From: Mycobacterium sp. 3519A | GTDB lineage: Bacteria; Actinomycetota; Actinomycetes; Mycobacteriales; Mycobacteriaceae | Direction of reading: 5' to 3' | DNA: 64,000 bases | NCBI RefSeq assembly: GCF_900240945.1 | Contig: NZ_OESG01000013.1 | Location: 1,526,887-1,590,886 of the forward strand | Shown: one piece after another, positions 581 through 34,422 of the stretch | Position numbering within the stretch: position 1 is the stretch's first letter | Layout of the letters: each line of letters begins with the position of its first letter | The notes under the pieces: model-generated | The model's database searches: none | What the model was told of the DNA's origin: nothing | What the model saw: only the letters and a program-made list of their open reading frames with translations | Program-made: the position numbers and the translations under genes

Positions 581-593
581 ATGGTAACACCAT
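581..593. promoter_or_regulatory. GntR/FadR-type operator, perfect (ATGGT-AAC-ACCAT)
   Basis: Perfect 5-3-5 inverted repeat ATGGTAACACCAT, extended outward by GGCC on both sides with one offset base. It lies 41 bp upstream of the rpiB-like start in the rpiB/ferredoxin divergent promoter. It matches the TGGT-N3-ACCA operator core known for FadR-subfamily regulators. Presumed target of the regulator at 33663-34403. Confidence 0.75.
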
Positions 594-631
594 AGGCCTT
601 GAGCTACCCGTCCGTCGTCAGCTAAGGTAGA

Positions 632-644
632 ATGGTTAGACCAT
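632..644. promoter_or_regulatory. GntR/FadR-type operator, perfect (ATGGT-TAG-ACCAT)
   Basis: Second perfect 13-bp inverted repeat in the same intergenic region, ending 22 bp before the ferredoxin ATG, where it could overlap the transcription start and block the plus-strand promoter. With the site at 581-593 it makes this the only double-site promoter of the cluster. Confidence 0.75.
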
Positions 645-665
645 CACTTCAGTCCTGGAGATTGC

Positions 666-986
666 ATGCCGAAGGTCGTCTTCATCACCCTCGACGGTGC
701 CCAGCGCGTCGTCGACGCCAATGCCGGTGAGTCGGTCATGTCCGTCGCCGTGCGCAACGGTATCCCCGGCATCATCGGCGAATGCGGGGGCAACTGCAGT
801 TGCGCCACCTGCCACGTCTACGTCGACGACGAGTTCGCGTCGAGAGTCGGTGGCGCGAAGGACATGGAGGACGACCTTCTCGACCTCGGCGTCGCGGACC
901 GACGGCAGACCAGCAGGCTGTCCTGCCAGATCGCGGTAACCGACGCGCTCGACGGCCTCACCGTCCACGTGCCCGCGGAGCAGTGA
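666..986 (+). CDS. [2Fe-2S] ferredoxin, adrenodoxin/putidaredoxin type
   Basis: A 106-residue electron carrier. The four cluster ligands are visible as C40-x5-C46-x2-C49 and C87; C44 is an extra cysteine inside the loop (ECGGNCSCATC). Spacing and length match the adrenodoxin/putidaredoxin/rhodocoxin class that passes electrons from an FAD reductase to a P450 or Rieske oxygenase. It sits 2 bp upstream of a matching reductase. The Rieske oxygenase at 30195-31481 has no reductase domain and is under the same kind of operator, so it is the likely acceptor. The cyp136 P450 at 36808-38289 is a less likely alternative. Confidence 0.92.
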   Translation: MPKVVFITLDGAQRVVDANAGESVMSVAVRNGIPGIIGECGGNCSCATCHVYVDDEFASRVGGAKDMEDDLLDLGVADRRQTSRLSCQIAVTDALDGLTVHVPAEQ

Positions 987-988
987 CG

Positions 989-2242
989 ATGCCGGCGGGC
1001 ACCCTGATCATCGGGGCCAGTCAAGCGGGGCTGCAATTGGCGGTGTCGCTGCGCGATGCGGGTTCGACCGACCCGATCACCCTCGTCGGCGCCGAACCGT
1101 ACGCGCCGTATCAACGGCCGCCGTTGTCGAAGGCCTATCTGCACGGCAACACCGAACTCGAGCAGCTGTGGCTGCGGGCCCCGGAGGTGCTTGCCGGGCA
1201 AGGCATCACGTTGATCACCGGCGAACGCGTCGAGAAGGTCGATCTGTACGCCGGTGGCCCACCGGGAACGGCGAGGACCGCCAGCGGGCGAGTACTCGAC
1301 TTCGATCGGCTGGCGCTGACGGTCGGCGCGCGACCGCGGCAACTGACCGTGCCCGGTGCCAATCTCGACGGCGTCACCTATCTGCGCACCGCCGACGACG
1401 CGACGGTGCTGCGTGCGCTGCAGTCCGACGCCGAGTCGGTGGTGGTGATCGGCGGCGGCTTCATCGGACTCGAGGCCGCCGCGGTCGCCCGCACGCAGGG
1501 GAAGACGGTGACCGTCGTCGAGGCGGCCGACCGGCTGATCGGTCGCGCGGTGGCGCCAGTGGTGTCGGAGTTCTACCGCGACGCCCACATCGGCCGCGGC
1601 GTCGACGTCCGGATCGGCACGAAGGTGATTTCCCTTGGCGGCAAGCACAACCGGGTGCAGGTCGTCACGCTGGCCGACGGCAGCCAGATCCCCGCGGATC
1701 TGGTGATCGTCGGCATCGGCGTCGAACCGTGCACCGAACTGGCGCACCAACTCGGGCTCGCGTCCGCGGGCGGCATCGTCGTGGACAGGTTCGCCCGCAC
1801 GAGCAATCCCACCGTGGTCGCCGCGGGCGACTGCACGGTACAGCCCCACCCACTCACCGGCGAGGGCCGGGTGCGGCTGGAATCGGTGCAGAACGCGATC
1901 AGTCAGGCCAAGACCGCGGCGGCGACCCTGATTGGCCAACGGGTACCGAACGAGGCCGTGCCGTGGTTCTGGTCGGACCAGTACGACCTCAAACTTCAAA
2001 TCGCAGGCCTGTCAGCGGGACACGACGAGTACGTGGTGCGCGGCGACATCGCAGGCGAGTCCTTCTCGGTGCTGTACTACCGCGACGGCGCGCTCCTGGC
2101 GGTGGACGCCGTCAACATGCCGGGTGACTACATGGCGGTCCGCAAGGCGCTCAGCGTGGGCGCGACCATACATGCCGGCGCCGCGGCGGACAGCACGGTC
2201 GCGCTGCGTGAACTGATCGTTCCGCAGGCGATCGGCGCCTAG
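989..2242 (+). CDS. FAD-dependent ferredoxin reductase
   Basis: A 417-residue pyridine-nucleotide:ferredoxin oxidoreductase of the putidaredoxin/rhodocoxin reductase family, moving electrons from NAD(P)H through FAD to the adjacent ferredoxin. Seen: an N-terminal FAD dinucleotide motif (IIGASQAG, residues 7-14), a second nucleotide motif GGGFIGLE (155-162) and the C-terminal FAD signature AAGDC with Asp281. The ATG at 989 is chosen because it follows the ferredoxin stop by 2 bp; the same frame is open further upstream, but that would overlap the ferredoxin. Together the pair forms the electron-transfer chain of a three-component oxygenase. Confidence 0.92.
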   Translation: MPAGTLIIGASQAGLQLAVSLRDAGSTDPITLVGAEPYAPYQRPPLSKAYLHGNTELEQLWLRAPEVLAGQGITLITGERVEKVDLYAGGPPGTARTASGRVLDFDRLALTVGARPRQLTVPGANLDGVTYLRTADDATVLRALQSDAESVVVIGGGFIGLEAAAVARTQGKTVTVVEAADRLIGRAVAPVVSEFYRDAHIGRGVDVRIGTKVISLGGKHNRVQVVTLADGSQIPADLVIVGIGVEPCTELAHQLGLASAGGIVVDRFARTSNPTVVAAGDCTVQPHPLTGEGRVRLESVQNAISQAKTAAATLIGQRVPNEAVPWFWSDQYDLKLQIAGLSAGHDEYVVRGDIAGESFSVLYYRDGALLAVDAVNMPGDYMAVRKALSVGATIHAGAAADSTVALRELIVPQAIGA

Positions 2243-2309: not shown

Positions 2310-3221
2310 TCACTCGACGTCGGCGAACATCTCGTCGAGGTGGACGGGACGGGTCAAGATCCGTTGCGCCATGGCGAATTCCATCAACTGCTCGAGCATC
2401 GGGCGGTTCGCTTCGACGCCGTAGGGCAGCGGATCGGCTCCGGTCAGTTGCAGCACCGGCGAAAGCACGCGATCGGTGACGACGCCGTCGCGCAACTGGG
2501 CGACGTAGCGTTGTTTGGCCTCGCTAAACGCGTCGAACACCGCGCGCGCCACCTTCGGATAGCGCTGCAGCACGGAGTCTTTCACCACGATCAGATGGTT
2601 GATCGGGTAGAAGGCGCGCTCACGCAGGGCGCGGATGGCGGCGTCGTCCGGGTCTGGAATCAGCGGTGCGACGTCGGGGTGCTGCACGTCGACACCGATC
2701 ACGGCGTCGATCTCGTTGTTGATCAGCATGTCCGCGAGGTCGCCGGTGGCCGGTTCCACGTTGGCGGGCGGCACGTACGACGCCACATGCTCGTCGCCGG
2801 ACAGCACCCACCGCACACTCTGCAGGTCGACGCCGAACTCGCTGGCGAGGATGCCGCGGGCCCAGACGCCGGTGGTCACGGTGTAACCCCGGTTGACCCC
2901 GACGCGGCGACCCTCGAGGTCCTTCGGGTCGCGGATGCCCGACTTGGTGTTGTACCGGATCGCGCCGTGGTGGAAGCCTCGCACCAGGAAGATCGGCAGC
3001 GCCGTGAACGCGACGCCGTGCTCACGCGCGGTCAGATAGGTGGTCAGCGCCATCTCGCTGACGTCGAATTCCAGCGAGCGCACCATCCGGCGAAACCCCT
3101 TGACCAACACCGGAATCTCCTCGAAGGCAAACGAGAAGCCCGTCGGGGTCACCGAGCCGTCCTTGAGCGCCTGGTTGGCCCCCTGGGTTCGGGTGACTGT
3201 GGTCAACACAGGTTCAGCCAT
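2310..3221 (-). CDS. 4,5-dihydroxyphthalate decarboxylase-like protein (divergent copy)
   Basis: A 303-residue protein without signal peptide, related in layout to the Pht5 4,5-dihydroxyphthalate decarboxylase family, which has a periplasmic-binding-protein-like fold. The family pattern is visible as ALKDGSV near the N-terminus, EFDVSEMALTTYL, LPIFLVRGF and DLEGRRVGV. The N-terminal GDYDRTRAL signature seen in the copy at 6148-7134 is replaced, so substrate or chemistry may differ. The ATG at 3221 has a good ribosome site (GGAGGG). It diverges from the alcohol dehydrogenase gene across a weak operator. It could equally be a cytosolic or unlinked solute-binding-fold protein; a decarboxylase role is inferred from family and neighbours. 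Confidence 0.75.
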   Translation of the reverse strand: MAEPVLTTVTRTQGANQALKDGSVTPTGFSFAFEEIPVLVKGFRRMVRSLEFDVSEMALTTYLTAREHGVAFTALPIFLVRGFHHGAIRYNTKSGIRDPKDLEGRRVGVNRGYTVTTGVWARGILASEFGVDLQSVRWVLSGDEHVASYVPPANVEPATGDLADMLINNEIDAVIGVDVQHPDVAPLIPDPDDAAIRALRERAFYPINHLIVVKDSVLQRYPKVARAVFDAFSEAKQRYVAQLRDGVVTDRVLSPVLQLTGADPLPYGVEANRPMLEQLMEFAMAQRILTRPVHLDEMFADVE

Positions 3222-3265: not shown

Positions 3266-3278
3266 TTGGCATGACCAT
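3266..3278. promoter_or_regulatory. Degenerate GntR-type operator (TTGGC-ATG-ACCAT)
   Basis: One perfect half (ACCAT) and a 3/5 second half, placed between the divergent genes starting at 3221 (minus) and 3308 (plus). An overlapping longer inverted repeat TGGCAT/ATGCCA (3267-3272 and 3280-3285) also spans it. Position fits the regulon but the match is weak. Confidence 0.45.
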
Positions 3279-3307: not shown

Positions 3308-4432
3308 ATGGCACCGAGTGTTCTGGCCGCCGTGCGGGTCGCCCCCAGCACCACCGAAATCAGAGAGCTCCCGATGCCCGAGCTGTCCGACGATTCCGCC
3401 TTGCTCAAGGTCGAGGTCGCCGGCATCTGCGGCACCGATGTGAAGATGTACGCCAAACCGCCCTTCGACGATCCGGTGATCATGGGTCACGAGAACGTCG
3501 GCACCATCGCGGCGGCGGGGGAGAAGTTCAAGCAACTGCACGGCGTCACCGAAGGCGACCGCGTCTTCGTCGAGCACTATGTGGGCTGCTACAACTGCGA
3601 ATGGTGCCGCATCGGTGAATACCGGCACTGTGAGGCCACCGACTGGCGCACGAACGCCGATGCCCGCCGGTACGGCTACACCTCGGCGGAGAACCCCGGC
3701 ACGCTGTGGGGCGGCTTCTCCGAATACATGTACCTGCCGTGGAACGCCGTGCTGCACAAGGTTCCGGACAGGGTGAGCGCCGAACTGGCCGGCCTGGTGA
3801 CCCCGCTGTCGAACGGCATCGAATGGGCGCTGCTGGCCGCGGGTGTCGGGTACGCCGACACGGTGCTGATCCAGGGGCCCGGTCAGCAAGGCCTCTCACA
3901 GGTGGTGGCCTGCAAGCAGGCGGGCGCGTCGAAGATCATTCTGACCGGCACGACGCGCGACAAGGCACGCCTCGACCTCGCCCTCGAACTCGGCGCCGAC
4001 GACGTGATCGACATCGAGCAGGTCGACCCGCGCGAGGCCGTCATGGATCTCACCGGCGGCCGCGGCGTCGACTTCGTGCTGGACTGCACCTCGCGTGCCG
4101 GTGTCGGGCCGGTGCTGCTCGGCATCGATGTGCTCAAGCGCCGCGAGGGCACACTGCTGATCCAAGGTGAGCTGGCGGCGTTCCCCGACTTTCCGATCAA
4201 GCTGCTCACCGAGAAGGCGATCACCATCAAGAGCGCCCGCGGACACAGCTACCGCGCCTGCGAATTGGCGTTGCAGCAACTGGATTCGGGCCGCTTCCCG
4301 CTCGAGCGGCTGTCCACACATCAGTTCGGCCTCGACCAGGTGGACCGTGCGATCCGCGCGCTCGCCGGTGACACCGCAGACGAGGACGTCATCCACATTT
4401 CGCTGATGCCATGGCTGGGGAAGGACAAGTGA
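3308..4432 (+). CDS. Zinc-dependent medium-chain alcohol dehydrogenase
   Basis: A 374-residue MDR-family NAD(P)-dependent dehydrogenase. Catalytic zinc residues C41 (GICGTD) and H61-E62 (MGHEN) are present, and the structural zinc loop has C94, C97, C100 and C108. The Rossmann segment begins near residue 190 (LIQGPGQQG). It heads a tightly packed operon with ligK, ligJ and a decarboxylase-like gene, with a GTGA overlap to ligK. It probably oxidises a hydroxyl or diol intermediate of the aromatic pathway, possibly the cis-dihydrodiol made by the Rieske oxygenase or the step before LigJ. The exact substrate is not visible. Confidence 0.88.
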
Positions 4433-5127
4433 GCACGCCGACCGTCGTCCGCAATCCACCCCGACCCGACCCCGACGTCCGTGACGCCCTCGGCCAGTAC
4501 GGGGTGGCCACGATCCACGAGGCGCAGGGCCGCACCGGTCTGGTCGCGCCGTACATGACGCCCATCTACACCGGAGCCAGGGTGTGCGGAAGCGCCGTCA
4601 CAGTCAGCCTGCCGCCCGACGACAACTGGATGATCCATGTCGCCGTGGAACAGTGTCAGCCAGGCGACGTCCTGGTGGTCGCACCCGAATCACCCTCGGA
4701 ATACGGTTATTTCGGTGAGTTGCTGGCAACGACGTTGGCGGCTCGCGGGGTGCGCGGCCTGGTGATCGACGCCGGCTGTCGCGATATCGCCGAGTTGACG
4801 GAGATGAAGTTCCCGGTGTGGTCCAAGTGCGTATCCGCGCAGGGCACGGTCAAGAAGCGCCTCGGCTCGGTGAACATCCCGGTAACGTGCGCAGGCGCCG
4901 CGGTCGAACCCGGCGACGTGATCATCGGCGACGACGACGGCGTGGTGGTGGTGCCGCGCGCGAAAGCCGCCGAGGTGCTGGCAGCGGCCAAGGCCAGAGA
5001 GGAGAAGGAGGCGCGTTCGCGCGAGCGCTATCAGCGCGGCGAGCTGTTCCTCGACATCAACGACATGCGAGGCGAACTCGAACGTCTCGGCCTTCGCTAC
5101 GTCGACTACGAGCAGGCGTCGCAATGA
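4429..5127 (+). CDS. ligK: LigK-type 4-carboxy-4-hydroxy-2-oxoadipate aldolase (RraA superfamily)
   Basis: A 232-residue protein of the RraA-like class II aldolase superfamily. Family members (LigK/ProA/GalC) split 4-carboxy-4-hydroxy-2-oxoadipate into pyruvate and oxaloacetate, the last step of protocatechuate or gallate meta-cleavage. The signature GELLATT (96-102) followed by the metal-site segment DAGCRD (114-119) is present, with conserved R118 and D119. The GTG at 4429 is chosen because it overlaps the dehydrogenase stop (GTGA) and gives the usual family length. The next gene is ligJ, the enzyme that makes the LigK substrate, which strengthens the assignment. Regulatory RraA proteins are the alternative but lack this context. 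Confidence 0.88.
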
Positions 5128-6143
5128 TCATCGACGTCCACGGCCACTACACAACGGCGCCTGCCGAACAGCAGCGGTTCCGCACCGATCAGCTCGCCGC
5201 GTTGGAGGACCCGTCGCTGCCACCGCCCGCCCCGGCGCGGATCACCGACGACGAGATCCGCGAAAGCATCGAGCGCAACCAACTGCGGCTGCTGCGTGAG
5301 CGCGGTGGAGATCTGATGCTGTTCTCGCCGAAGGCTTCCGGCATGGAGCACCACGTCACCGACCAGGCGACCGCCGTCGAGTGGGCCAGGGCGTCCAACG
5401 ACCTCGTGCACCGGGTCGCCGAACTGTTCCCCGACTCCTTCGTCCCGGTGGCGCAGCTGCCGCAGACCCCCGACGGGGACCTCGGGCCTGTGGTCGACGA
5501 ATTGCGGCGCTGTGTCGAGGAACTCGGCTTCGTCGGATGCAACGTCAATCCCGATCCCTCGGCCGGTTACTGGGCCACGCCGCCGATGACCGACGAGTAC
5601 TGGTATCCGCTGTACGAGGCGATGGTGGAGCTCGAAGTGCCCGCCATGGTGCACGTCTCGACGTCGTGCAACCCCAACTTCCACACCCTCGGTGCGCACT
5701 ACCTCAATGCCGACACCAGTGTCTTCATGCAATTCGTCCTGGCGGACCTCTTCGTGAAGTATCCGAGTTTGACCTTCGTCATTCCGCACGGGGGCGGGGC
5801 GGTGCCGTACCACTGGGGCAGGTACCGCGGGCTGGCGGAGCGGCTGGGCAGACCCGACCCCGCCGAGCTGCTACGCAACGTGTACTTCGACACCTGCGTC
5901 TACCACCAACCCGGAATCGATTTGCTGGCCAACGTGATTCCGGCGGAGAACATCCTGTTCGCCTCCGAGATGCTCGGCGCGGTACGAGGTGCCGACCCGG
6001 AGACCGGGGTGGCATGGGACGACACTTTGGTCTACGTCGAGAACCTCGCGCTGACGGACATCAACCGGCAAGCGATCGTCGAATTGAATGCCCGCCGCGC
6101 ATACCCGCGTCTGCATCGGCGGCTCGCCGCCGCAGGAAGGTGA
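5124..6143 (+). CDS. ligJ: LigJ-type 4-oxalomesaconate hydratase (amidohydrolase superfamily)
   Basis: A 339-residue metal-dependent hydratase. LigJ adds water to 4-oxalomesaconate, giving the substrate of LigK. Metal-site residues are visible: H6 and H8 (DVHGH), H177 (MVHVS), H222 ([11 protein letters not shown]) and E282 (FASEM) at the position where LigJ has a glutamate. Long blocks such as [11 protein letters not shown] and [15 protein letters not shown] are typical of LigJ rather than of the related ACMSD decarboxylases. The ATG overlaps the ligK stop. The LigJ-LigK pair implies that the cluster ends in the protocatechuate 4,5-cleavage lower pathway or a close variant, though no LigAB ring-cleavage genes occur here. 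Confidence 0.92.
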
Positions 6144-6147
6144 GTGG

Positions 6148-7134
6148 ATGTCCAATCTGCATCTGACGTTCGCGTGCGGTGACTACGACCGCACCCGCGC
6201 GCTCGAGGACGGCAGCGTGCGTGCCGACGGCATCGACCTCACCTATCTTCGGCTGCCGGTGGAGGAGACGTTCTTCCGGATGCTGCGGCACCGCGAATTC
6301 GACGTCGCGGAGATGTCGCTGTCCACCTATGTCGCGACGCTGGACCGCGACGCGCGCCCGTTCGTCGCGCTTCCGGTGTTCACCTCGCGGATGTTCCGCC
6401 ACGGCGGGGTGTACATCAACGCCGACGCCGGCATCTCGGTGCCATCGGACCTGCGCGGTAAGCGGGTGGCCTCCCCGGAGTTCCAGTTGACGGCGGGCGT
6501 GTGGATCAGAGGCATCCTCGCCGAACACCACGGCGTGCCAATCGATTCGGTCACCTACTTCACCGGCGGACAGGAGACACCGGGGCGTATCGAGAAGGGC
6601 AAGGTGGACACCGGACTCGACATCCGCCCGATACCGACAGGTGCCACACTTGCCAGGATGCTCGCCGACGGGGAGATCGACGCGTTGTACACGCCGCGGG
6701 TGCCCAGTCCGTTCCGCGACGGTGACAAGCGGGTCAAGCGGTTGTTCGAGGACGTGGTCGCCGTCGAGAGAGAGTACTTCGCGGCGACGCGGATCTTCCC
6801 GATCATGCACGTCGTCGTGCTCCGCGCCGAACTCTACGAACGGCATCGGTGGATCGCCCAGTCGCTGTACAAGGCGTGCCTGCGGGCGCGCGATCTGGCC
6901 TACGAACGCATCTACGATTCGTCGGCACTGCGGTTCATGGAGCCATGGCTGATCCAGCATCTCGAGGAGTCGCGCGAGTTGCTGGGCCGCGACTACTGGT
7001 CCTACGGCCTTGCTGACAACGAACACGTGCTCGACGCGTTCCTCGGCTATCACCACGCGCAAGGACTGTCCCGCAACCGGTATGAGCCCGCCGACCTGTT
7101 CGCACCGGAGACGACGGAAGCGTTCGTCATCTGA
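6148..7134 (+). CDS. 4,5-dihydroxyphthalate decarboxylase-like protein
   Basis: A 328-residue protein with the full Pht5-family N-terminal pattern FACGDYDRTRALEDGSV, then EFDVAEMSLSTY, LPVFTSRMFRHGG and LRGKRVASPEFQLTAGVW. Pht5 converts 4,5-dihydroxyphthalate to protocatechuate; the fold is that of periplasmic binding proteins, but there is no signal peptide, so it acts in the cytosol. The ATG at 6148, 4 bp after ligJ and preceded by AGGAAGG, is the best start. Its position after ligJ fits a decarboxylation that feeds the meta-cleavage route. A diverged paralogue lies at 2310-3221. Automated annotation may call both ABC solute-binding proteins. Confidence 0.85.
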   Translation: MSNLHLTFACGDYDRTRALEDGSVRADGIDLTYLRLPVEETFFRMLRHREFDVAEMSLSTYVATLDRDARPFVALPVFTSRMFRHGGVYINADAGISVPSDLRGKRVASPEFQLTAGVWIRGILAEHHGVPIDSVTYFTGGQETPGRIEKGKVDTGLDIRPIPTGATLARMLADGEIDALYTPRVPSPFRDGDKRVKRLFEDVVAVEREYFAATRIFPIMHVVVLRAELYERHRWIAQSLYKACLRARDLAYERIYDSSALRFMEPWLIQHLEESRELLGRDYWSYGLADNEHVLDAFLGYHHAQGLSRNRYEPADLFAPETTEAFVI

Positions 7135-7251: not shown

Positions 7252-7283
7252 CATGATAGAAATCACACTGATGGTCTGAATGT
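7252..7283 (+). promoter_or_regulatory. Composite promoter module: CRP-like site plus GntR half-site (copy 1)
   Basis: CATGATAGAAATCACA (7252-7267) holds a perfect TGAT-N4-ATCA palindrome and a perfect TCACA half of the mycobacterial CRP consensus TGTGA-N6-TCACA. Three bases further is ATGGT (7271-7275), the left half of the cluster operator; the right half is not conserved here. The same arrangement precedes the solute-binding genes at 14547 and 25299. It lies 38 bp upstream of the GTG at 7321. The rest of the 7135-7320 gap shows no gene. Confidence 0.6.
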
Positions 7284-7320
7284 CAGTCCATTCACAGTGG
7301 CAGATCATGAGGAGTGAGCC

Positions 7321-11553: not shown

Positions 11554-11591
11554 GCAGGACAAGATGATCCGGTGAAAGAGGAACACAGCAT

Positions 11592-12452: not shown

Positions 12453-12482
12453 GTTCACAACATGTTTGGAGTTCGATAGCCA

Positions 12483-13129: not shown

Positions 13130-13142
13130 ATGGTAAAACCAT
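13130..13142. promoter_or_regulatory. GntR/FadR-type operator, perfect (ATGGT-AAA-ACCAT)
   Basis: Perfect 5-3-5 inverted repeat, 33 bp upstream of the bicupin 2 start at 13176 and 18 bp after the previous stop. It suggests that bicupin 2 has its own promoter controlled with the rest of the cluster. Confidence 0.75.
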
Positions 13143-14276: not shown

Positions 14277-14397
14277 CTCCAACGCGCTGGTCGCCCTTGG
14301 GCGGCACAGTGCGTTTTCTGCTATCCAGAATTTGGTGGATATTTCTGTTCGTGCAGCAGACAATATTTCGGTGAAGGACTTCACAGGAGCCTTCTAA

Positions 14398-14429: not shown

Positions 14430-14546
14430 AAGTCCAGAGATTGCCGAAGACCCATCAGCCCAAAGCTCAGCGATCGACAGGCCGTCAACGGGGCCAGAAT
14501 CCGGCGCAGGCGCCGGCGGACATTGAACAGTGAGGACTCGAGGCAC

Positions 14547-18632: not shown

Positions 18633-18640
18633 CCGCGAGT

Positions 18641-25299: not shown

Positions 25300-25352
25300 C
25301 GAGCGCCTCCCGTCTGGAATGCCGCCCGTGGCAGCACTGCGGTGTGGGCCAT

Positions 25353-25383
25353 ACGGTAATACCATTATGTGATTGCTATCACG
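25353..25383 (-). promoter_or_regulatory. Composite promoter module: CRP-like site plus GntR operator (copy 3)
   Basis: Read on the minus strand, CGTGATAGCAATCACA (25383-25368) matches TGTGA-N6-TCACA at 9 of 10 positions, followed after 2 bp by ATGGT-ATT-ACCGT (25365-25353), a 9/10 operator match. This is the best CRP-like copy of the three. It lies 54 bp upstream of the solute-binding gene and also within the divergent promoter region of the SDR-hyuA-hyuB operon. Confidence 0.68.
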
Positions 25384-25486
25384 TCCATGCCGCTCGAACA
25401 AGGCTTCGTTGACATTGGACTAACTAAAAAATAAATTGCCCATTAGGTGTCCTGAGTCACAGCGCTGATCGAGAAGGGATCCTGAA

Positions 25487-26242: not shown

Positions 26243-26253
26243 GCGGACACATC

Positions 26254-28338
26254 GTGACTCGACAAGCGCGGTACCGGGTGGCCACCGACACCGGCGGCAC
26301 ATTCACCGACTTCGTCATATACGACGCGCAGCGCAACGACTACCACATCATGAAAGTGCCGTCGACACCGGACGATCCGTCCCGCGCGGTGGTCAACGGT
26401 TTGGCGACGATGCGCAAGCGCGGCATTGCGCCCGAGCGCGTCGAGGTGTTCATGCACGGCACCACGGTCGGCACCAACGCGCTGCTCGAGGAACGTGGAG
26501 CCAAGGCCGGGCTCGCGATCACCCGGGGCTTCCGCGGCGTGTACGAGACGATGGAGCAGAGCAGACCGTACGGGCCCGCCGTCTTCGACCTCGGTTATAC
26601 CAAACCCGCGATGCTGACCCCGCAGTCGCGAACGGTCGAATTGGCCGAGCGGGTGTCGTTCGACGGAGAGGTGAGCCGACCGCTGGCCGAGGAAGACATT
26701 CAGGCGGCGATCGTCGAACTCGAAGCCGCCGACGTGGAATCCGTCGCAGTGTGCTTCCTGTTCTCGTTCATGCACCCCGACCACGAGCAGCGGTTCGCCG
26801 ACGCCGTACGCTTGGCGCATCCGGAGTGGTTCGTCACCACATCCAGCGACCTGCTGCCGCAGATGCGCGAGTACTACCGGTTGAGCACCACGGTGATCAA
26901 CGCATACGTGTCACCTGTGCTGGCCCGGTACGTGGCTCGGCTCTCCGATGAGCTCGACAAGCTCCAGGTGGCCCCCGGCCGGCGGTTCACCATGCAGTCC
27001 AACGGGGGATCGGCCCCGTTCGCGAAGACCGGCGAACGCGGCGTGTCGACCATTTTGTCCGGCCCGGCGGGTGGAGTGACCGCCGCCATCGGCCTCGGCA
27101 GGCTCACCAGTGCCGACAACATCATCACCTTCGACATGGGTGGCACGAGTTGCGATGTCGCGCTGATCCGCGGCGGTAGCGCACTGGTCAGCGACCACAA
27201 CACCGTCGACGGCCGACACCTCGCGGTGCCCATGCTGGATATCAACACCGTCAGCGCGGGCGGGGGCACGATCGCCCGCGTCGACGCTGGCGGCGGTCTG
27301 CGGGTTGGGCCGCGCAGCGCGGGCGCGGTACCTGGGCCCGCGGCGTACGGCAACGGCGGCACCGAGGCCACGGTCACTGACGCAGACGTCGTGCTCGGCT
27401 ATCTGAACCCCGACTGGCTGCTCGACGGCGATCTGCGAGTCGATTCGGCCGCGGCGCACCGCGTGATCGACCGACTGGCGCAGGGTCTCGGTGTGGATCC
27501 GCTACGCGCGGCCGACGGCATAGTGCGCGTGGTCAACATCAAGATGGCGGAAGCGATCCGGGCGATCTCGACCGAGCGCGGGTTCGATCTGCGCGACTTC
27601 TGCCTCGTCCCTTTCGGCGGAGCGGGGCCGCTGCACGCCTGCCAGATCGCGATCGACCTCGGCATCCCCACCGTGCTGGTACCACCGGCGCCGGGCGCCA
27701 CGTCGGCACTCGGGTTGCTGATGTCCGACGTCAAGCACGACTTCGTGCGCAGTCGGCTGTCGCCGCTGGCCGACCTGTCGGTCGGTGCCGCGAACCAGAT
27801 CTTCGGCGAGATGACCGCCGAGGCGCGCAAACAGCTTGCAGCCGAGGGCTTTCCGACCGACGCCGTGCGGCTGGAGTACTTCCTCGACCTGCGCTACGCC
27901 GGGCAGGGGTACGAAAATGCGGTGCCCGTCGACAAACTGCCGATCGCACCCGGTCACCTGGCCGGCTATCGTGACGCCTTCGACGAAGTGCATCGCCAGT
28001 TCCACGGCCACGCGGCACCCGATCAACCGGTCGAGGTGGTCAGTTATCGCACGGTCGCAACCGGATTGCTGCCCGATGTCACACTGAAGGAGATGACGGT
28101 CGTCGACACACCGGTCGAAGACGCCATCGTCGGCATCCGCGCCGCTTACTTCCCGTCCGCCTCGAAGGAACCGGTCGAAGTGGATGTCTACGCGCGCAGA
28201 CGATTACAACCGGGACACCGGTTCGACGGCCCGGCGATCGTCGAGCAGTACGACGCCACCACGGTGGTGTGCCCCGAGCAGACGGCGCGGGTCGACGAGT
28301 ACGGCAACCTGATCATCACACGCCCGGGGAGTCGATGA
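26254..28338 (+). CDS. hyuA: Hydantoinase A / oxoprolinase A-family protein
   Basis: A 694-residue ASKHA-fold subunit of the HyuA/HyuB family, which uses ATP to activate amide, lactam or ketone substrates (N-methylhydantoinase, 5-oxoprolinase, acetone or acetophenone carboxylases). The N-terminal phosphate loop TDTGGTFTDFV, HGTTVGTNALLE, the central FDMGGTSCDVALI and the C-terminal PFGGAGPLHA are clear. GTG start at 26254. Overlaps hyuB by ATGA. A carboxylase of the acetone type would need a further subunit not present here, so ATP-dependent lactam or imide hydrolysis is more likely. Confidence 0.9.
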   Translation: MTRQARYRVATDTGGTFTDFVIYDAQRNDYHIMKVPSTPDDPSRAVVNGLATMRKRGIAPERVEVFMHGTTVGTNALLEERGAKAGLAITRGFRGVYETMEQSRPYGPAVFDLGYTKPAMLTPQSRTVELAERVSFDGEVSRPLAEEDIQAAIVELEAADVESVAVCFLFSFMHPDHEQRFADAVRLAHPEWFVTTSSDLLPQMREYYRLSTTVINAYVSPVLARYVARLSDELDKLQVAPGRRFTMQSNGGSAPFAKTGERGVSTILSGPAGGVTAAIGLGRLTSADNIITFDMGGTSCDVALIRGGSALVSDHNTVDGRHLAVPMLDINTVSAGGGTIARVDAGGGLRVGPRSAGAVPGPAAYGNGGTEATVTDADVVLGYLNPDWLLDGDLRVDSAAAHRVIDRLAQGLGVDPLRAADGIVRVVNIKMAEAIRAISTERGFDLRDFCLVPFGGAGPLHACQIAIDLGIPTVLVPPAPGATSALGLLMSDVKHDFVRSRLSPLADLSVGAANQIFGEMTAEARKQLAAEGFPTDAVRLEYFLDLRYAGQGYENAVPVDKLPIAPGHLAGYRDAFDEVHRQFHGHAAPDQPVEVVSYRTVATGLLPDVTLKEMTVVDTPVEDAIVGIRAAYFPSASKEPVEVDVYARRRLQPGHRFDGPAIVEQYDATTVVCPEQTARVDEYGNLIITRPGSR

Positions 28339-30098
28339 TGAGCACGGTCGACGCGATCGAGATCGAAGTCATCAGCCAGAGCCTGGTCGGGGTCGTCCAG
28401 CAGATGCAGAACTCACTGTTCCGCACCGGATACTCGACCATCATCCGCGAGTCGCGTGACGCCAGTTGCGCCATCCTGGACACCGCAGGCCGGGTGGTCG
28501 CCCAGCACACCGTGCTCCCACTGCATCTCGGTGCGTTCCCCGCCTCGCTGGAAGCGGTGCTCGCGGCCTATCCGATCGACCAGATGCGCGACGGCGACGC
28601 GTTCATCGTCAACCACCCCTATTTCGGCGGCAGCCCGCACGCCAGCGACATGGCGGTGATCGCCCCGATCATGCTGGCGGGCAAGGTATTCGCGTTCAGC
28701 GGCAGCATCGCGCACAAGAGCGATATCGGGGGACTGGTACCAGGCACCAACTCCGGACAAGCCAAGGAGATCTTCCACGAAGGTCTGCTGCTGCCGCCGG
28801 TGCGCTACTGCACGGCATTCGAACCCAGCACCGAAATCGAGGCGATCCTGCAGGCCAACAGCCGCACACCGCGACTGGTCCTCGGCGACCTGCGCGGGCA
28901 GGTGGGCGCCGCCCGGCTCGCGACCGAAAGGATCCGCGGTCTGTGCGCCAAGTACGGCGCGCAGACCGTCGAGGCCGCGTCCGACGGGCTGCTCACCATG
29001 ACCGAGCGGCGGGTGCGCGCGGCGGTAACCGGCTGGCCCGACGGGGTGTACACAGGCAGTCGAACCTTGCACACCAAGGGAATCGAGAACGGCAGGCCCG
29101 TCACCATCAGGGTGGTCGTCACCATCGACGGCGATTCAATTCGCTTCGATTTCCGCCGCTCCGACGACCAGGTTTCCGGGCCGTACAACATCCGGCCGCC
29201 GTTGGTGCGGGCCGTCTGCTACTACGCGCTGAAGTGCCTCGTCGATCCAGATATCCCGGCCAACGGCGGTTTCGCCGCGGCGATCGACGCCGACTTCCGT
29301 CCCGGCTCCCTGCTCAGTCCGGAACTGCCCGCGCCGGTGAACACCTACATGACCGTTGCGGTGGCCACCGCAGATGCGCTGTTCGACGCGCTCGGCCAGG
29401 CGTTGCCAGCCGCCCGGATCGCCGAGAGCAGCAAGGGCACGAATGGGACGTTGTCCCATCTGATTTCGCGGCACGGCCAGCCGCAGGTGCAATACGAGTT
29501 GCCTGCAGGCGCCATCGGCGCCCGGCACGACAAAGACGGGGTGTCGGCGTCGAAGGCACACGTCGCCAACGGCACGCTGACGCCGATCGAAGTCGTCGAG
29601 AGCGAATTCCCGGTCCAACTCGAACGATTCGAGTTGGTGGTGGACTCGGGTGGGCCCGGCAGATACCGGGGCGGGTTGGGCTATGTGCGGGACTACCGCT
29701 TGCTCGGCGAGGCCCGGTTCAGCTCACGCACAGGCAAGGACCTGACGCCGCCCGCCGGGCGCGCGGGCGGCCTGCCCGGCGGCGGGTCGGCGATCCTTGT
29801 CAACCCGGGCCGTCCTGACGAGTATGAGGTGACGGTCGACGGCGGCCCAGTGGCGCTGCGGGCAGGCGATGTTCTTCGGTTAGCTCAGGCCGGTGGTGGC
29901 GGCTACGGCGACCCGTTGACGCGCCCGGTCGAGGACGTGCTGACCGACGTGCGCGAGGGTTATGTCAGCGCCGTGGCGGCCCGCTCAGACTATGGTGTCG
30001 CACTCGACATGGTCGACGGAGATATGCAGGTCAACGACGTCGAAACCCAACGGCTGCGCTTCAGCCCGACAGGGAGCCGGCCGGTTCCTATTGGCTGA
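28335..30098 (+). CDS. hyuB: Hydantoinase B / oxoprolinase B-family protein
   Basis: A 587-residue partner subunit of HyuA. Family blocks include FRTGYSTIIRESRDASCAI, DAFIVNHPYFGGSPHASDM, SSKGTNGTLSH and, at the C-terminus, AGGGGYGDPLTRPVEDVLTD. Start ATG at 28335, with another in-frame ATG at 28338; both overlap the hyuA stop. With HyuA it forms the hydrolase or carboxylase holoenzyme. The stop is followed 8 bp later by the operator of the Rieske operon. Confidence 0.9.
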   Translation: MMSTVDAIEIEVISQSLVGVVQQMQNSLFRTGYSTIIRESRDASCAILDTAGRVVAQHTVLPLHLGAFPASLEAVLAAYPIDQMRDGDAFIVNHPYFGGSPHASDMAVIAPIMLAGKVFAFSGSIAHKSDIGGLVPGTNSGQAKEIFHEGLLLPPVRYCTAFEPSTEIEAILQANSRTPRLVLGDLRGQVGAARLATERIRGLCAKYGAQTVEAASDGLLTMTERRVRAAVTGWPDGVYTGSRTLHTKGIENGRPVTIRVVVTIDGDSIRFDFRRSDDQVSGPYNIRPPLVRAVCYYALKCLVDPDIPANGGFAAAIDADFRPGSLLSPELPAPVNTYMTVAVATADALFDALGQALPAARIAESSKGTNGTLSHLISRHGQPQVQYELPAGAIGARHDKDGVSASKAHVANGTLTPIEVVESEFPVQLERFELVVDSGGPGRYRGGLGYVRDYRLLGEARFSSRTGKDLTPPAGRAGGLPGGGSAILVNPGRPDEYEVTVDGGPVALRAGDVLRLAQAGGGGYGDPLTRPVEDVLTDVREGYVSAVAARSDYGVALDMVDGDMQVNDVETQRLRFSPTGSRPVPIG

Positions 30099-30106: not shown

Positions 30107-30119
30107 ATGGTATTACAAT
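30107..30119. promoter_or_regulatory. GntR/FadR-type operator (ATGGT-ATT-ACAAT)
   Basis: A 9/10 match to the cluster operator, 75 bp upstream of the Rieske oxygenase start, in the short gap after hyuB. It links the oxygenase operon to the same regulator as the ferredoxin and reductase 30 kb away. Confidence 0.7.
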
Positions 30120-30194: not shown

Positions 30195-31481
30195 GTGCTT
30201 AGGGCAGAGATCAATGAGCTTTTGACCCGTACAGGTCCGGGCACGCCGATGGGCGAGATGTTCCGGCAGTATTGGATTCCGGCGATGCTCGCCGAGGAGC
30301 TCCCCGAGAACGACTGCCCTCCGGTTCGGGTGAAACTGCTGAGCGAGCGGATGGTCGCATTCCGCGACAGCGACGGCCGGTACGGCTTGATCGACGAATT
30401 CTGCGCACACCGCGGCGCGTCACTGTGGTTCGGCCGCAACGAGGGCTCGGGTCTGCGCTGCCCTTACCATGGTTGGAAATACGACGTCACCGGTCAGGCC
30501 GTGGAGGTGCCATCGGAACCGGAGAACAGCAACTTCTGCGCGCACGTGAAGCTGACGTCGTACCCGTTGGTCAAGATCGGTGACGTGCTCTGGACGTACA
30601 TGGGCGATCCGGAGAAACAGCCACCGCTGCCGGAGTTCGAGTTCGCACTCGTCCCGCCCGAGCAGACCTACACGTCCAAGCGCTGGCAGGAATGCAACTG
30701 GCTGCAGGCGTTCGAGGGCGGCATCGACTCCAGCCATGTGTCGTTCCTGCACGCCGGCGGGCTGAAGAGCGACCCGTTGTTCAAGGGCGCCAAGGGCAAC
30801 GAGTACAACATGGGTGATCTCAAGCCCTACTTCGAGGTGGCCGACTTCGACGGTGGGCTGTTCGTCGGTGCCAGGCGCAACGCCGAGGACGACACCTACT
30901 ACTGGCGTATCACGCCGTGGGTGATGCCGTGCTTCACCATGGTGCCGCCCCGCGGGGATCACCCGATGCACGGCCACTTCTGGATCCCGATCGACGACGA
31001 GAACTGCTGGGCGTACTCGTTCGACTACCACCCGGTGCGTGCGTTGACCGCCTCCGAGGTGCAAGCGATGCGCGACGGCCACGGCGTGCACAGCGAGAAC
31101 ATTCCCGGCACCTATCGCCCGAAGGCCAACAAGGACAACGACTACCTGATCGATCGCGAAGCGCAGAAGCGCGGGGACACGTATTCCGGTGTGAAGGGCA
31201 TCGCGATGCAGGATGCGTCGCTGCAGGAGAGCATGGGTCCGATCGTCGACCGCACCAAGGAGATGCTGGTGTCGGCAGACACCGGCATCATCAAGGCCAG
31301 GCAGAAGCTGAAGAAGGCCGTCGAGGCGTTGCGGGACAACGGAACCACCCCTCCCGGTGTGGACCCGGCCCATCACAGGGTGCGGTCCGCCGCGGTGGTG
31401 TTGCCGCGGGACGCATCGTTCATCGAGGCCTGTCGCGAGGACCTGTCGGTACGCGAGGGCGTTCGGCAGTCGTCGGTATGA
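30195..31481 (+). CDS. Rieske aromatic-ring oxygenase, phthalate 4,5-dioxygenase type
   Basis: A 428-residue oxygenase alpha component. The Rieske cluster motif is C70-x-H72 with C89-x2-H92 (CAHRGASLWF and CPYHGW). The mononuclear iron site is in the block GGIDSSHVSFLH, with His181 and His186 and the bridging Asp178. The N-terminal TRTGPGTPMGEMFRQYWIP is characteristic of the phthalate 4,5-dioxygenase/LigXa subgroup. No reductase domain is present, so it needs the ferredoxin and reductase at 666-2242. GTG start after GAGAGGG. It is the probable entry step of the pathway, hydroxylating or demethylating an aromatic carboxylate. Confidence 0.92.
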   Translation: MLRAEINELLTRTGPGTPMGEMFRQYWIPAMLAEELPENDCPPVRVKLLSERMVAFRDSDGRYGLIDEFCAHRGASLWFGRNEGSGLRCPYHGWKYDVTGQAVEVPSEPENSNFCAHVKLTSYPLVKIGDVLWTYMGDPEKQPPLPEFEFALVPPEQTYTSKRWQECNWLQAFEGGIDSSHVSFLHAGGLKSDPLFKGAKGNEYNMGDLKPYFEVADFDGGLFVGARRNAEDDTYYWRITPWVMPCFTMVPPRGDHPMHGHFWIPIDDENCWAYSFDYHPVRALTASEVQAMRDGHGVHSENIPGTYRPKANKDNDYLIDREAQKRGDTYSGVKGIAMQDASLQESMGPIVDRTKEMLVSADTGIIKARQKLKKAVEALRDNGTTPPGVDPAHHRVRSAAVVLPRDASFIEACREDLSVREGVRQSSV

Positions 31482-31990
31482 CCGCGCGGCCGATCCTCGG
31501 CAGCAGTTGCGCCAGGGCGACCACGGCCGCCGAGATGCGCTACCGCATCGACCGGCCCATCCGCGGGCGCCAGGGCGCGCGCATCGTCGGACTGGACGCC
31601 GGTGCGGACGCAATCGTCACCCGCATCGCCGGTGAGCAGTGGGGACACGCGCGGTTCTTCTCACTGGCCGAGCCGGCTGGGCCGGTCGGCGACGCGGGTT
31701 CGGAATCGGTGGTGCTGCGGTCCGCCGACGGCGCGGTGTCCAGCCTGCTCGCCGAACTCGAAGACGCCGATGTGGTGATCATGGTGGCCACCACCGAAAG
31801 TGACACCGTGGCAGCCACCATCATCGGCGCGGCGTGCACCGTGCGCGGAATCATGACCGCAGGCTTGGTGATTGGCGAGCAGACGCTCGTCAGCGCCACG
31901 GTCGCGGCCATCCGCCCGCACGCACGCGTGCTGATGGTCAGTACCGACGAGCGCGACGTGATCGACGTGCTCACCGCTCTGCGGGCCTAG
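31478..31990 (+). CDS. Protein of unknown function between Rieske oxygenase and PanB-like gene
   Basis: A 170-residue protein I do not recognise. The start ATG overlaps the oxygenase stop (ATGA) and is in the frame that ends 8 bp before the PanB-like start. The sequence alternates predicted strands and helices: ARIVGLDAGADAIVTRI, a middle ELEDADVVIMVATTESD and RGIMTAGLVIG, which suggests a small Rossmann-like or tubulin-N-terminal-like alpha/beta fold, but no nucleotide motif such as GGGTGTG is present. No signal peptide or membrane helix. Tight coupling suggests it acts with the oxygenase or the PanB-like enzyme. Confidence 0.75.
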   Translation: MTARPILGSSCARATTAAEMRYRIDRPIRGRQGARIVGLDAGADAIVTRIAGEQWGHARFFSLAEPAGPVGDAGSESVVLRSADGAVSSLLAELEDADVVIMVATTESDTVAATIIGAACTVRGIMTAGLVIGEQTLVSATVAAIRPHARVLMVSTDERDVIDVLTALRA

Positions 31991-31998
31991 GAGGCGGC

Positions 31999-32820
31999 AT
32001 GACCGACAAGGTGCAACTGAGCGACCTGCAGGCGATGAAGCGCGCCGGCCGCAAGATCGTCGGCGTGGTCGCGTGGGATTACCAGATGGCGCGCATCGTG
32101 GACCGCGCTGGCGTCGATCTGGTCTCGGTGGGCGACACCGTCGGCGTCAACCTGTGGGGTCAGGCCAACCCGCTGGAGATCACCGTCGAACAGATGATGG
32201 TGGTCTGCCAGGCGGTGCGCCGAGGCGTCACACGTGCGCTGGTCAGCTGCGACTTCCCGTTCGGGCCTGTGCAGGAGGGCACGAAAAGCGCTGTGCGGGC
32301 GGCGATCCGGTTCGTCAAGGAAGCCGGCGTCGACATGGTCAAGCTCGACGGCGCGTCTGAACACCTGGACGCCGTTACCGCGGTGACGCGCGCAGGCATT
32401 CCGGTGTTCGCGCAGTTCGGCATCACCCCGCAGACGTCGCTGAAGTACGGCGTCACCTACAGCGCGACGCCGAAGCCCGGCGACGTGGTGCCTGACGAGA
32501 TGCTCGACGAGATCGTCGGCGAGGCAAAGCGTCTCGAGGACGCTGGAGCTGCGCTGCTGAACTTCACCAACTCCGGGCCGACCGTCGGCGCCGCTGTCGC
32601 CGAGGCCGTTTCGATACCCGTGGTGGGCGGGTTCGGCGGCGGGCCGTGGTTGGACGGCCGGATGCGGATGGTCACCGCCGCGATCGGCTACAGCGCCGAC
32701 GCGCTGGATTCACCGCCGGACACCTACGCCAACGTCGCGCAGATCGTGCACGACGCGATCACCGCGTACTCCAGCGACGTGCGGTCCGCGCGCCAGATCG
32801 CGGGCGGGCTGAAGCGATGA
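31999..32820 (+). CDS. PanB-like ketopantoate hydroxymethyltransferase-family protein
   Basis: A 273-residue TIM-barrel protein of the PanB family, whose founding member adds a hydroxymethyl group to 2-oxoisovalerate in pantothenate synthesis. Family features seen: LVSVGDTVGVNLWG for the metal-binding DS(V)G-type block, AVRRGVTRALVSCDFPFG, VKLDGA and FAQFGITPQ. Ribosome site GGAGGC. Its place inside a catabolic operon, coupled by ATGA to a hydrolase, argues against a housekeeping pantothenate role; the reverse aldol-type cleavage of a branched oxo acid is a possibility but only an inference. Confidence 0.82.
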   Translation: MTDKVQLSDLQAMKRAGRKIVGVVAWDYQMARIVDRAGVDLVSVGDTVGVNLWGQANPLEITVEQMMVVCQAVRRGVTRALVSCDFPFGPVQEGTKSAVRAAIRFVKEAGVDMVKLDGASEHLDAVTAVTRAGIPVFAQFGITPQTSLKYGVTYSATPKPGDVVPDEMLDEIVGEAKRLEDAGAALLNFTNSGPTVGAAVAEAVSIPVVGGFGGGPWLDGRMRMVTAAIGYSADALDSPPDTYANVAQIVHDAITAYSSDVRSARQIAGGLKR

Positions 32821-33677
32821 CCGCCGCCACGACCGTCGCCGACGGCATCGTGACCCGCTACGAGGAGGCGGGATCAGGTCCGCCGCTGCTGATGTTCTCA
32901 CCCGGCGGATTCAACGCCAGCATGGACAGCTGGGAGACCCACGGACTGTACCGCCGCACGCGCATGCTGGCACAGCTGCGCGAGCGGTTCACCTGCATCA
33001 CCTTCGACAAGCGGGAGGCGGGCCGCTCCGGCGGCCGGGTGGAACGGGTGAGCTGGACCGACTACGTCAACCAGGGCGTCGGGTTGCTCGACCACCTCGG
33101 CTACGGCCGGGTCCACATCATGGGTGCGTGTGTGGGTTGTTCCATCGCAACGCTTTTCGCGACGACGCACCGCGATCGGGTGGCGGGCATGGTGTTGTAC
33201 TCGCCCGCGGGCGGCCCGCAGTACCGCCGCAAACAGCACGCCCGGTTCACGGCCCATCTTGCCTACGTCGCCGAGCACGGGCTTGCCGGCGTGGTCGCGT
33301 TGGCGGGTGCGACGGAGGCGGGGTTCTCCGACGACGGGCGGGTCGGGCCGTGGGTGTCGGTGCTGCGTAGCGACCCGGACTTCGCCGCCCGCTACGCGCA
33401 GTTCGACGCGGGCCGATACCAGACGATCGTCGCGGGCATGAGCAGGCTGCTGTTCGACCGCGACACCGTGCCGGGTGCTGAGCCGGAAGACCTTCTGGCG
33501 TCAGACGTTCCGGCGCTGATCGTGCCGGGGGAGGACACCTCGCACGCGCCGTCTGCGGCGCGTTACCTGCAGGAGTGCCTGCCCGCCGCGCAGTACTGGG
33601 ACGTGCCGGTAGCCGAGCAGACCGCCGACACCGCGCCTGCGCGCGTCATCGACTTCCTTTCCTCACTTGCTCTTTGA
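32817..33677 (+). CDS. Alpha/beta hydrolase with cysteine at the nucleophile elbow
   Basis: A 286-residue alpha/beta-fold hydrolase. The oxyanion region (MFSPGGFN) and the acid and His regions (PGEDTSHAPS) are recognisable. The nucleophile elbow, normally G-x-S-x-G, reads IMGACVGCS, placing a Cys where Ser is usual; DNA at 33121-33145 confirms the TGT codon. Such cysteine variants occur in dienelactone hydrolases and a few others. It ends the Rieske operon, overlapping the convergent regulator stop by 15 bp. Possible role: C-C or ester hydrolysis of a ring-fission product. Confidence 0.85.
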   Translation: MTAATTVADGIVTRYEEAGSGPPLLMFSPGGFNASMDSWETHGLYRRTRMLAQLRERFTCITFDKREAGRSGGRVERVSWTDYVNQGVGLLDHLGYGRVHIMGACVGCSIATLFATTHRDRVAGMVLYSPAGGPQYRRKQHARFTAHLAYVAEHGLAGVVALAGATEAGFSDDGRVGPWVSVLRSDPDFAARYAQFDAGRYQTIVAGMSRLLFDRDTVPGAEPEDLLASDVPALIVPGEDTSHAPSAARYLQECLPAAQYWDVPVAEQTADTAPARVIDFLSSLAL

Positions 33678-34403
33678 GACATGCCGCGCGGTGCGGCCGA
33701 TGTGGGTGCGCATCACGGCGGTGGCCTTCTCGACATCGCGTTTCTTGATCGCAGCGACGAACTGACGGTGTTCGCGGTTGCCGCGGATACCCATTTCGGG
33801 GTGGTCGTCCTTGACGTGCTGCAGCGACCGCAGTGTCGGGCCGTGGAACGATTCGGCCAGCATGACGATCGCCGCGTTGTGACTGGCGCGGGCGACGCGG
33901 GTGTGGAACTCCGCCGACAGCGACATCGGATAGGACCCCTTCGCCGCCGCTTCGTCGCCGCGGTCACAGATCTCGATCAGATCCGCGATGTCTTCCTCGG
34001 TGGCCCGCTCGCACACCAGCGGGATGATGCCGAGTTCGAGGATCTGCCGCGCCTCGGTGACTTCCTTGTCGGTCAGTTCGGAGAGCGCAAGCAGGTCGAT
34101 GATGCCCTCGCTGAGGCGGGCGCTGGTGGGGGCGGTGACGAATGCGCCGCCGCGGGCGCCGACCTTGATGGTGACCATGCCGTTGGCCTCGAGTCCGCGC
34201 AAGGCCTCGCGCACCGTCACCCGGCTGACGCCGAACTTCTCGCCGAGTTCACGCTCGGCGGGCAACCGGTCGCCGGGTTTGAGCGAACCGTCGCGAATCA
34301 ACAGACGGATCTGGTCGACGATCATCTCGGAGGCCCGCCCCGGGTTCACCCGGCTGAAGAGGCCATCTGTTGTCGCCCTGGCCGCGCTTCCCTCTGTCGT
34401 CAT
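33663..34403 (-). CDS. FadR-subfamily GntR transcriptional regulator
   Basis: A 246-residue regulator with an N-terminal winged helix (LKPGDRLPAERELGEKFGVSRVTVREALRGLEANGMV) and a C-terminal FCD ligand domain with the metal-site pattern around SAEFHTRVARASHN. It is the only regulator gene inside the 34-kb catabolic cluster. FadR-type proteins bind TGGT-N3-ACCA, which is the core of the palindrome repeated across the cluster, so it is the presumed repressor or activator of the whole regulon. A degenerate copy lies 6 bp before its own ATG, suggesting autoregulation. The effector is probably the substrate or an intermediate. Confidence 0.92.
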   Translation of the reverse strand: MTTEGSAARATTDGLFSRVNPGRASEMIVDQIRLLIRDGSLKPGDRLPAERELGEKFGVSRVTVREALRGLEANGMVTIKVGARGGAFVTAPTSARLSEGIIDLLALSELTDKEVTEARQILELGIIPLVCERATEEDIADLIEICDRGDEAAAKGSYPMSLSAEFHTRVARASHNAAIVMLAESFHGPTLRSLQHVKDDHPEMGIRGNREHRQFVAAIKKRDVEKATAVMRTHIGRTARHVSKSK

Positions 34404-34409
34404 GGACCA

Positions 34410-34422
34410 ATGATAAAGCCAT
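34410..34422. promoter_or_regulatory. Probable autoregulatory operator (ATGAT-AAA-GCCAT)
   Basis: An 8/10 match to the cluster operator, just upstream of the GntR regulator ATG on the minus strand (ATGGC-TTT-ATCAT). The symmetric changes at the inner position of each half keep the palindrome. Confidence 0.55.

Follow-up and report, generated by a model that had tools for sequence, protein, structure and literature searches.

The 64 kb stretch of Mycobacterium sp. 3519A analysed here in full (hereafter the window) contains a gene cluster of some 34 kb, in which the palindrome ATGGT-N3-ACCAT recurs in front of genes for electron transfer, import and catabolism, and which ends with gntR, a gene for a GntR/FCD (FadR-subfamily) regulator on the minus strand. 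As a computational prediction, the existence of a regulon defined by this element is well supported, and the palindromes are very probably the operators of the gntR product, which would repress most of the cluster units until an acid of the pathway binds to it. The reading frames were assigned by profile family searches, and sequence-level comparisons with solved structures covered the regulator and five further proteins. The resulting inventory of genes and sites is given in Table 1.

Table 1. Genes, operator-like sites and CRP-like palindromes of the cluster, in window coordinates (site scores: matching bases out of ten)
Feature	Position	Strand	Remarks
rpiB	85..540	-	LacAB/RpiB-family isomerase-type protein, from family search
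rpiB operator	581..593		perfect, ATGGTAACACCAT; 40 bp before rpiB start
fdx operator	632..644		perfect; first base 34 bp before fdx ATG
fdx	666..986	+	[2Fe-2S] ferredoxin (Fer2)
fdr	989..2242	+	ferredoxin-NAD reductase, HcaD/AndAa-like; below curated cut-offs
dhpd1	2310..3221	-	no Pfam match; labelled decarboxylase by relation only
dhpd1/adh operator	3266..3278		8/10, TTGGCATGACCAT; between dhpd1 (-) and adh-ligK-ligJ-dhpd2 (+)
adh	3308..4432	+	zinc alcohol dehydrogenase
ligK	4411..5127	+	LigK, 4-carboxy-4-hydroxy-2-oxoadipate aldolase; over curated cut-offs
ligJ	5124..6143	+	amidohydrolase (Amidohydro_2); named LigJ after the initial annotation and its position beside LigK
dhpd2	6148..7134	+	4,5-dihydroxyphthalate decarboxylase-like; PDB 9jp7, E 1.2e-79
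CRP-like palindromes (two)	7252..7296		beside sbp1 operator remnant
sbp1 site	7271..7283		half-site, ATGGTCTGAATGT, upstream of sbp1; decayed operator or half-site
sbp1	7321..8427	+	solute-binding protein
cupA	8470..9537	+	cupin, gentisate dioxygenase-like; below cut-offs
AAA ATPase	9528..10430	+	overlaps cupA
sbp2, dlh, cysteine hydrolase-like	10450..13112	+	dlh: dienelactone hydrolase-like
cupB operator	13130..13142		perfect; upstream of cupB
cupB	13176..14204	+	cupin
CRP-like palindromes (two)	14370..14413		upstream of sbp3 operator
sbp3 operator	14417..14429		9/10; upstream of sbp3-perm-atp-mfs
sbp3-perm-atp-mfs	14523..19882	+	ABC importer (sbp3, permease, ATPase) and MFS protein
cupC operator	19900..19912		9/10; upstream of cupC-eutA-phtC
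cupC	19941..21086	+	cupin
eutA	21083..22603	+	EutA-family protein; PF06277 364.5 bits (cut-off 27)
phtC	22600..23316	+	PhtC family, 3,4-dihydroxyphthalate decarboxylase; over curated cut-off
3-hydroxyisobutyrate dehydrogenase-like	23311..24165	-	below curated cut-offs
sbp4, sdr, hyuA, hyuB	24205..30098		sbp4 at 24205-25299 (-); sdr-hyuA-hyuB (+)
sbp4 operator	25353..25365		9/10; between sbp4 (-) and sdr-hyuA-hyuB (+); 53 bp before sbp4 start
CRP-like palindrome	25368..25383		beside sbp4 operator
Rieske operator	30107..30119		9/10; upstream of Rieske operon
rieske-u29-panB-abh	30195..33677	+	Rieske oxygenase, u29 (no Pfam match), PanB-like, alpha/beta hydrolase
gntR	33663..34403	-	GntR/FCD (FadR-subfamily) regulator; proposed repressor of the cluster
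gntR site	34410..34422		8/10, ATGATAAAGCCAT; upstream of gntR

Occurrence and conservation of the palindrome

A pattern search of the window recovered every site that an initial annotation of this DNA had listed. Allowing for at most one mismatch, ATGGTNNNACCAT has seven matches spanning 581-30119, three of them perfect (581, 632 and 13130) and four with 9/10 (14417, 19900, 25353 and 30107); shuffled windows contain 1.0 such matches on average and 5 at the most, and seven were reached in none of 100 shuffles. With up to two mismatches the window holds 20 matches, 9 of which lie inside nine gaps totalling 1,168 bp, a count that is partly circular because these gaps were delimited around the reported sites. 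A pattern scan of the complete genome (7,306,349 bases in 14 contigs) did not show such sites to be equally frequent elsewhere, the outcome that would have refuted the initial annotation: the genome has three perfect sites, every one inside this cluster, and of the 61 sites that depart from the pattern in no more than one base, seven fall within these 34 kb, where 0.25 would be expected from the rest of the genome (P ~1e-8). The pattern read backwards, which served as a control, occurs once perfectly and 17 times with at most one mismatch. The 16-base extended palindrome CTAATGGTNNNACCATTAG (at most three mismatches) yields 5 matches in the genome, all in the cluster; since its backwards control is commoner (13 matches), this particular test rests on location and not on number.

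Conservation within the genus was studied in a sample of 396 congeneric genomes, with orthologue cut-offs of E <=1e-50 for the regulator and E <=1e-150 for the Rieske oxygenase. Orthologues of the regulator are present in 23 genomes, and the Rieske oxygenase is present in the same 23. At least one perfect site is found within 30 kb of the regulator in 10 of these (own genome counted), and in relative G211 a perfect site stands upstream of cupB on another contig. A perfect site somewhere in the genome is common (292 of the 396 genomes have at least one), the difference being the place. Nine relatives possess the full cluster and nine a shorter one that consists of rieske-u29-panB-abh, gntR and fdx-fdr, sometimes with dhpd1; six named loci of the short type (L081-L086) continue with adh-ligK-ligJ. 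Promoters were scored in ten full clusters (own included) and nine short ones; neither set includes G211 and G445, where contigs are broken, or G292 and G443, where the regulator lies apart from the Rieske gene.

A score of at least 8/10, which shuffled promoters reach in 1-5% of cases and those of the genes with well-kept sites in about 3-5%, was obtained in all ten full clusters for each of the fdx, dhpd1/adh, cupB, sbp3, cupC and rieske promoters, the cupB operator being perfect throughout. The rpiB operator was scored within 75 bp of rpiB only, because a wider count (9/10 clusters) could borrow the adjoining fdx site, and within that distance it reaches the same level in 9 of the 10; the predicted regulon additionally includes rpiB. 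Among the short clusters the corresponding numbers are 9/9 for rieske, 8/9 for fdx, 1/9 for gntR and 3/3 for the scorable dhpd1 promoters (of five such promoters, 2 did not offer enough sequence for scoring, and the stretches of the other 4 of the 9 clusters showed no dhpd1). The Rieske promoters outside the scored sets have a 9/10 site in G211 and an 8/10 site in G292 and G443, where it begins 47 bp ahead of the gene start, so that the Rieske operator attains at least 8/10 in 22 of the 22 readable promoters of the 23 genomes, the promoter of G445 being cut by the contig end.

The weaker sites of the initial annotation fared differently. The site at 3266 is kept in relatives and is perfect in G295. 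The match at 34410 reaches 8/10 in only 3 of the 19 clusters, one of them that of the own genome. It coincides in part with TATCAT, a predicted -10 box of leaderless type that ends 6 nt before the ATG, and is more likely to represent a leaderless promoter than an operator, and such a promoter would explain why a stretch at gntR is conserved without an operator. Self-control of the regulator via 34410 is accordingly unsupported in the clusters scored; the regulator gene does have an 8/10 site upstream of it in G292 and G443. The half-site at 7271 exists as annotated and appears decayed: it attains 8-9/10 in G218 and G486 only, i.e. in 2 of the 10 full clusters, and we rejected it as a full operator.

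Predicted promoters and likely mode of control

In five units (fdx, cupB, sbp3, cupC and rieske) the operator either overlaps a predicted -10 box or lies next to one. For fdx (TTGAGC-N18-TAAGGT) the -10 box at 623-628 ends 3 bp before the operator, and for cupB (TGGACA-N17-TACCAT) the box at 13120-13125 ends 4 bp before it; for cupC (TTGACA-N16-TACCAT) and rieske (TTGGCT-N17-TACAAT) the predicted box lies within the right part of the operator, and for sbp3 that part, TACAAT, itself forms the predicted -10 box, with a poor -35 box. The replacement of ACCAT by ACAAT at rieske and sbp3 would yield TACAAT, a better -10 box. As a consequence of this placement repression is the likely mode of control. 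In most cluster units a dimer of the regulator, bound to ATGGT-N3-ACCAT, would cover the -10 box or transcription start and block initiation until an acid of the pathway occupies the FCD domain, whereupon the isomerase, electron-transfer, importer, decarboxylase, cupin, Rieske and LigJ/LigK units would be induced jointly. What can be read directly are the sites, their enrichment and conservation, their tie to the regulator orthologues and their placement with respect to the promoter-like boxes. The binding of the regulator, the direction of control and the effector, perhaps an aromatic dicarboxylate or a ring-cleavage product, are inferred, as is a second input of CRP type.

The operator at 25353 fits sbp4. 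It is also located upstream of a separate predicted sdr promoter (TTGACA-N17-TAAATT from 25409), a geometry that leaves some room for a regulator that activates or acts in both directions. Against the five units in which the operator takes the position expected of a repressor, activation or dual action is an unlikely alternative to repression. Because the -35 box of sdr stands 43 bp beyond (downstream of) the operator at 25353, control of the sdr-hyuA-hyuB operon by this site is doubtful and only possibly real.

A second input at the promoters of the solute-binding proteins is hinted at by palindromes that resemble TGTGA-N6-TCACA, found beside the sbp1, sbp3 and sbp4 sites (Table 1) and also near cupB. 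The copy at sbp3 matches one and the same expression in 11 of 11 genomes and the copy at sbp1 in 5 of 11; in the 6 genomes that remain the latter has an altered form as judged by eye. TGTGA-N6-TCACA has 6 matches in the delimited gaps, a number that is equalled by 1 of 149 other patterns. A window-wide enrichment of CRP-like sites was rejected (13 matches versus 21 expected), and since what matters is therefore their location and recurrence, CRP-type control by carbon status is a lead only. The CRP consensus used for comparison is the one given in PMC4005916.

Probable assignment to the local regulator

The gntR product scores 74.5 bits against PF00392 (cut-off 27) and 88 bits against PF07729 (cut-off 24.3), the domain combination of the FadR subfamily, and stays below the NCBIfam curated cut-offs for LldR (97.5/311 bits), PdhR (96.8/330), NanR (120.2/260) and FadR (37.6/249.2). 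Its residues E117, H167, H212 and H234, candidates for the acidic and three histidine residues of the FCD metal site, are invariant in 14 aligned orthologues. PMC4494728 describes FadR-subfamily operators as TKGT/ACMA boxes, mostly 3 nt apart in A/T-rich surroundings, and the operator logic on which the initial annotation had relied agrees with this consensus: TKGT-N3-ACMA is found near the genes concerned, with 3266 and 34410 deviating.

Beyond the genus, named genomes were scanned by alignment to the regulator, and the best 80 of 122 loci were analysed, 15 of them mycobacterial (overlapping the genus set) and 65 from elsewhere. The 65 non-mycobacterial orthologues are 54-68% identical to the regulator, and the cluster genes occur there in reshuffled blocks. 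ATGGT-N3-ACCAT has 109 matches around them (at most one mismatch), including 33 perfect ones, in 54 of the 65 loci; it leads the 90 patterns compared, since the 89 controls (permutations of the half-site, spacers of 2-4) show a median of 4 matches and 0 perfect ones and do not exceed 44 and 2, respectively. At least one match is present in 23 of 25 genera or higher groups and a perfect one in 11, and 81 matches (14 perfect) remain when the 17 Streptomyces loci are left out. Of the 109 matches, 84 are found in the 300 bp preceding a cluster gene or the regulator gene, where 16 would be expected, and none lies within a matched gene. Genes of the locus were found beside the regulator in, for instance, Amycolatopsis, Pseudonocardia, Streptomyces, Blastococcus and Nonomuraea.

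The distant loci can be divided by content. Around 15 loci with Rieske/PanB/Lig genes and neither cupin nor importer genes there are 20 matches, 1 of them perfect (control median 1; maxima 12 and 1); around 22 loci of the opposite, cupin/importer type there are 32, 19 of them perfect (control median 1; maxima 28 and 2); and the 28 remaining loci have 57, 13 of them perfect (control maxima 18 and 1). It is the regulator that all loci of both types have in common. Since every cluster available for comparison has the local regulator, the case for the local protein as the one that recognises the sites rests chiefly on this finding. Together with the co-occurrence of regulator and Rieske oxygenase in the same 23 genomes, the motif around distant orthologues supports the assignment made in the initial annotation, and the conservation and enrichment of the sites likewise support its proposal that the ferredoxin/reductase, importer, Rieske and LigJ/LigK genes form one regulon.

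Several observations weigh against this reading. In 12 of the 23 genomes perfect sites are missing both from the surroundings of the regulator and from the cluster stretches, and in the full clusters the sbp1 and gntR promoters each reach 8/10 in only 2 of 10. Among the distant loci 11 of 65 are without a match at up to one mismatch, and the relatedness of the species means that their matches are not independent. The motif does not rank first around the 15 mycobacterial loci, which were cut at 10 kb; there it is tied second with 18 matches, none of them perfect. The perfect count of the Rieske-type set does not exceed its control maximum, one control comes to 28 against the 32 of the cupin-type set, and the two sets also share phtC (3/15 and 17/22) and, in a few loci, fdr and dhpd2. 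The promoter boxes are consensus matches that are conserved only in part. Finally, the genome encodes 19 FCD proteins over the cut-off, the local one counted, which the comparison set, where every cluster has the local regulator, does not separate.

This last point bears on the possibility that the palindromes serve a different FadR-subfamily protein, whose gene lies elsewhere in the genome, as operators, with the local gene controlling something else. TKGT/ACMA boxes are common to members of the subfamily (PMC4494728), and the promoter of the local gene itself is without a good site. The nearest other FCD gene, however, lies about 63 kb before the start of the window, the motif accompanies the orthologues of the local gene across Actinobacteria even where the other genes mostly differ, 15 of the 109 matches in other actinobacteria have the regulator gene as their closest downstream neighbour, and G292 and G443 also have a site before it; control by such a distant protein is very unlikely. 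That the repeats reflect chance, base composition or duplicated promoter sequence without any regulation, for which one could cite the similarity of the sbp1, sbp3 and sbp4 promoters over a longer stretch (they may be duplicates) and the commoner backwards control of the extended pattern, has a negligible probability in view of the genomic enrichment, the retention of sites in diverged promoters and the recurrence in other families; chance and base composition were rejected as their source on the basis of the shuffles, genome counts, conservation and distant-locus controls.

Gene content and known systems

Judging from its gene families, the cluster that the gntR product is proposed to repress probably serves to break down an aromatic acid, possibly an isophthalate-like diacid; the latter suggestion is based on the decarboxylase-type genes and the closest solved relative of the Rieske oxygenase (PDB 9INA, E 2e-136, residues 3-418 of 428). 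Relatives of dhpd1 are about 32% identical to the 6148-7134 protein. Among the compared relatives, sbp2 and dlh are found in G207 and G486 only. The EutA-family protein remains below the NCBIfam equivalog cut-offs (300.1/598 bits), and a part in ethanolamine use was rejected as no match to its partner EutB was found anywhere in the genome. Overlapping genes of the cupin/ATPase type occur twice, cupA with the AAA protein (8470-10430) and cupC with the EutA-family protein (19941-22603), and such pairs recur in other actinobacteria. The gene for the PanB (ketopantoate hydroxymethyltransferase)-like protein (31987-32820) is mostly found near a Rieske oxygenase gene. Just past the cluster, at 34486-36041, lie genes for a Fic-type and a PAS-ANTAR protein; both are shared with G207, and the Fic gene also with G285 (56%).

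The segment at 24.2-30.1 kb stands apart in its conservation. In the compared stretches of relatives sbp4 and sdr match apparent paralogues only, and hyuA and hyuB were found neither in these stretches nor, at 35% identity or more, within the covered flanks of the 80 named loci. Both hyu products are caprolactamase-like and miss the NCBIfam cut-offs for CapA/CapB (581.4/1000 and 245.2/1000 bits). Because the promoters of sbp1 and sbp3 are similar to that of sbp4, this segment may have been wired into the regulon through a duplicated promoter.

The pathway behind the predicted regulon, which was not found described in the literature covered, is largely uncharacterised; no description of the cluster or regulon was recognised among the matches listed for the operator, regulon, pathway and parts (subscription journals, preprints and RegPrecise lay outside this scope). 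A tentative extension, which may well not hold, is that palindrome and FCD regulator define an undescribed, actinobacteria-wide regulon for aromatic dicarboxylates, with cupin ring-cleavage enzymes that have dedicated ATPases (cupA with the AAA protein, cupC with the EutA-family protein) and with movable modules that carry their own operator copies. Operator, regulator and gene list constitute a testable set, in which the operator can be used to search sequences for more genes of the pathway and the paired cupin and ATPase genes pose a concrete enzymological question; once its ligand is known, the regulator could serve as a sensor.

The best-scoring solved relative of the regulator is PDB 2di3 (E 1.7e-19), in which histidines align with His 167, 212 and 234. 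This entry, whose record states the GntR family only, is presumably LldR/CGL2915 of Corynebacterium glutamicum, a distant relative that reportedly regulates other genes and responds to another ligand. The Rieske oxygenase resembles the isophthalate dioxygenase of Comamonas testosteroni KF1 (9INA) over its full length, but the KF1 enzyme is, according to PMC12445078, a two-component system with its own reductase, whereas ferredoxin and reductase are separate here. The FadR-subfamily regulators treated in PMC4494728 (LldR, PdhR, GlcC and others) are like the present one in their GntR helix-turn-helix and FCD domains and in a palindrome with a 3-nt spacer and an A/T-rich centre; unlike them, the regulator described here seems to control a cluster of the aromatic-acid type, through about eight operators.

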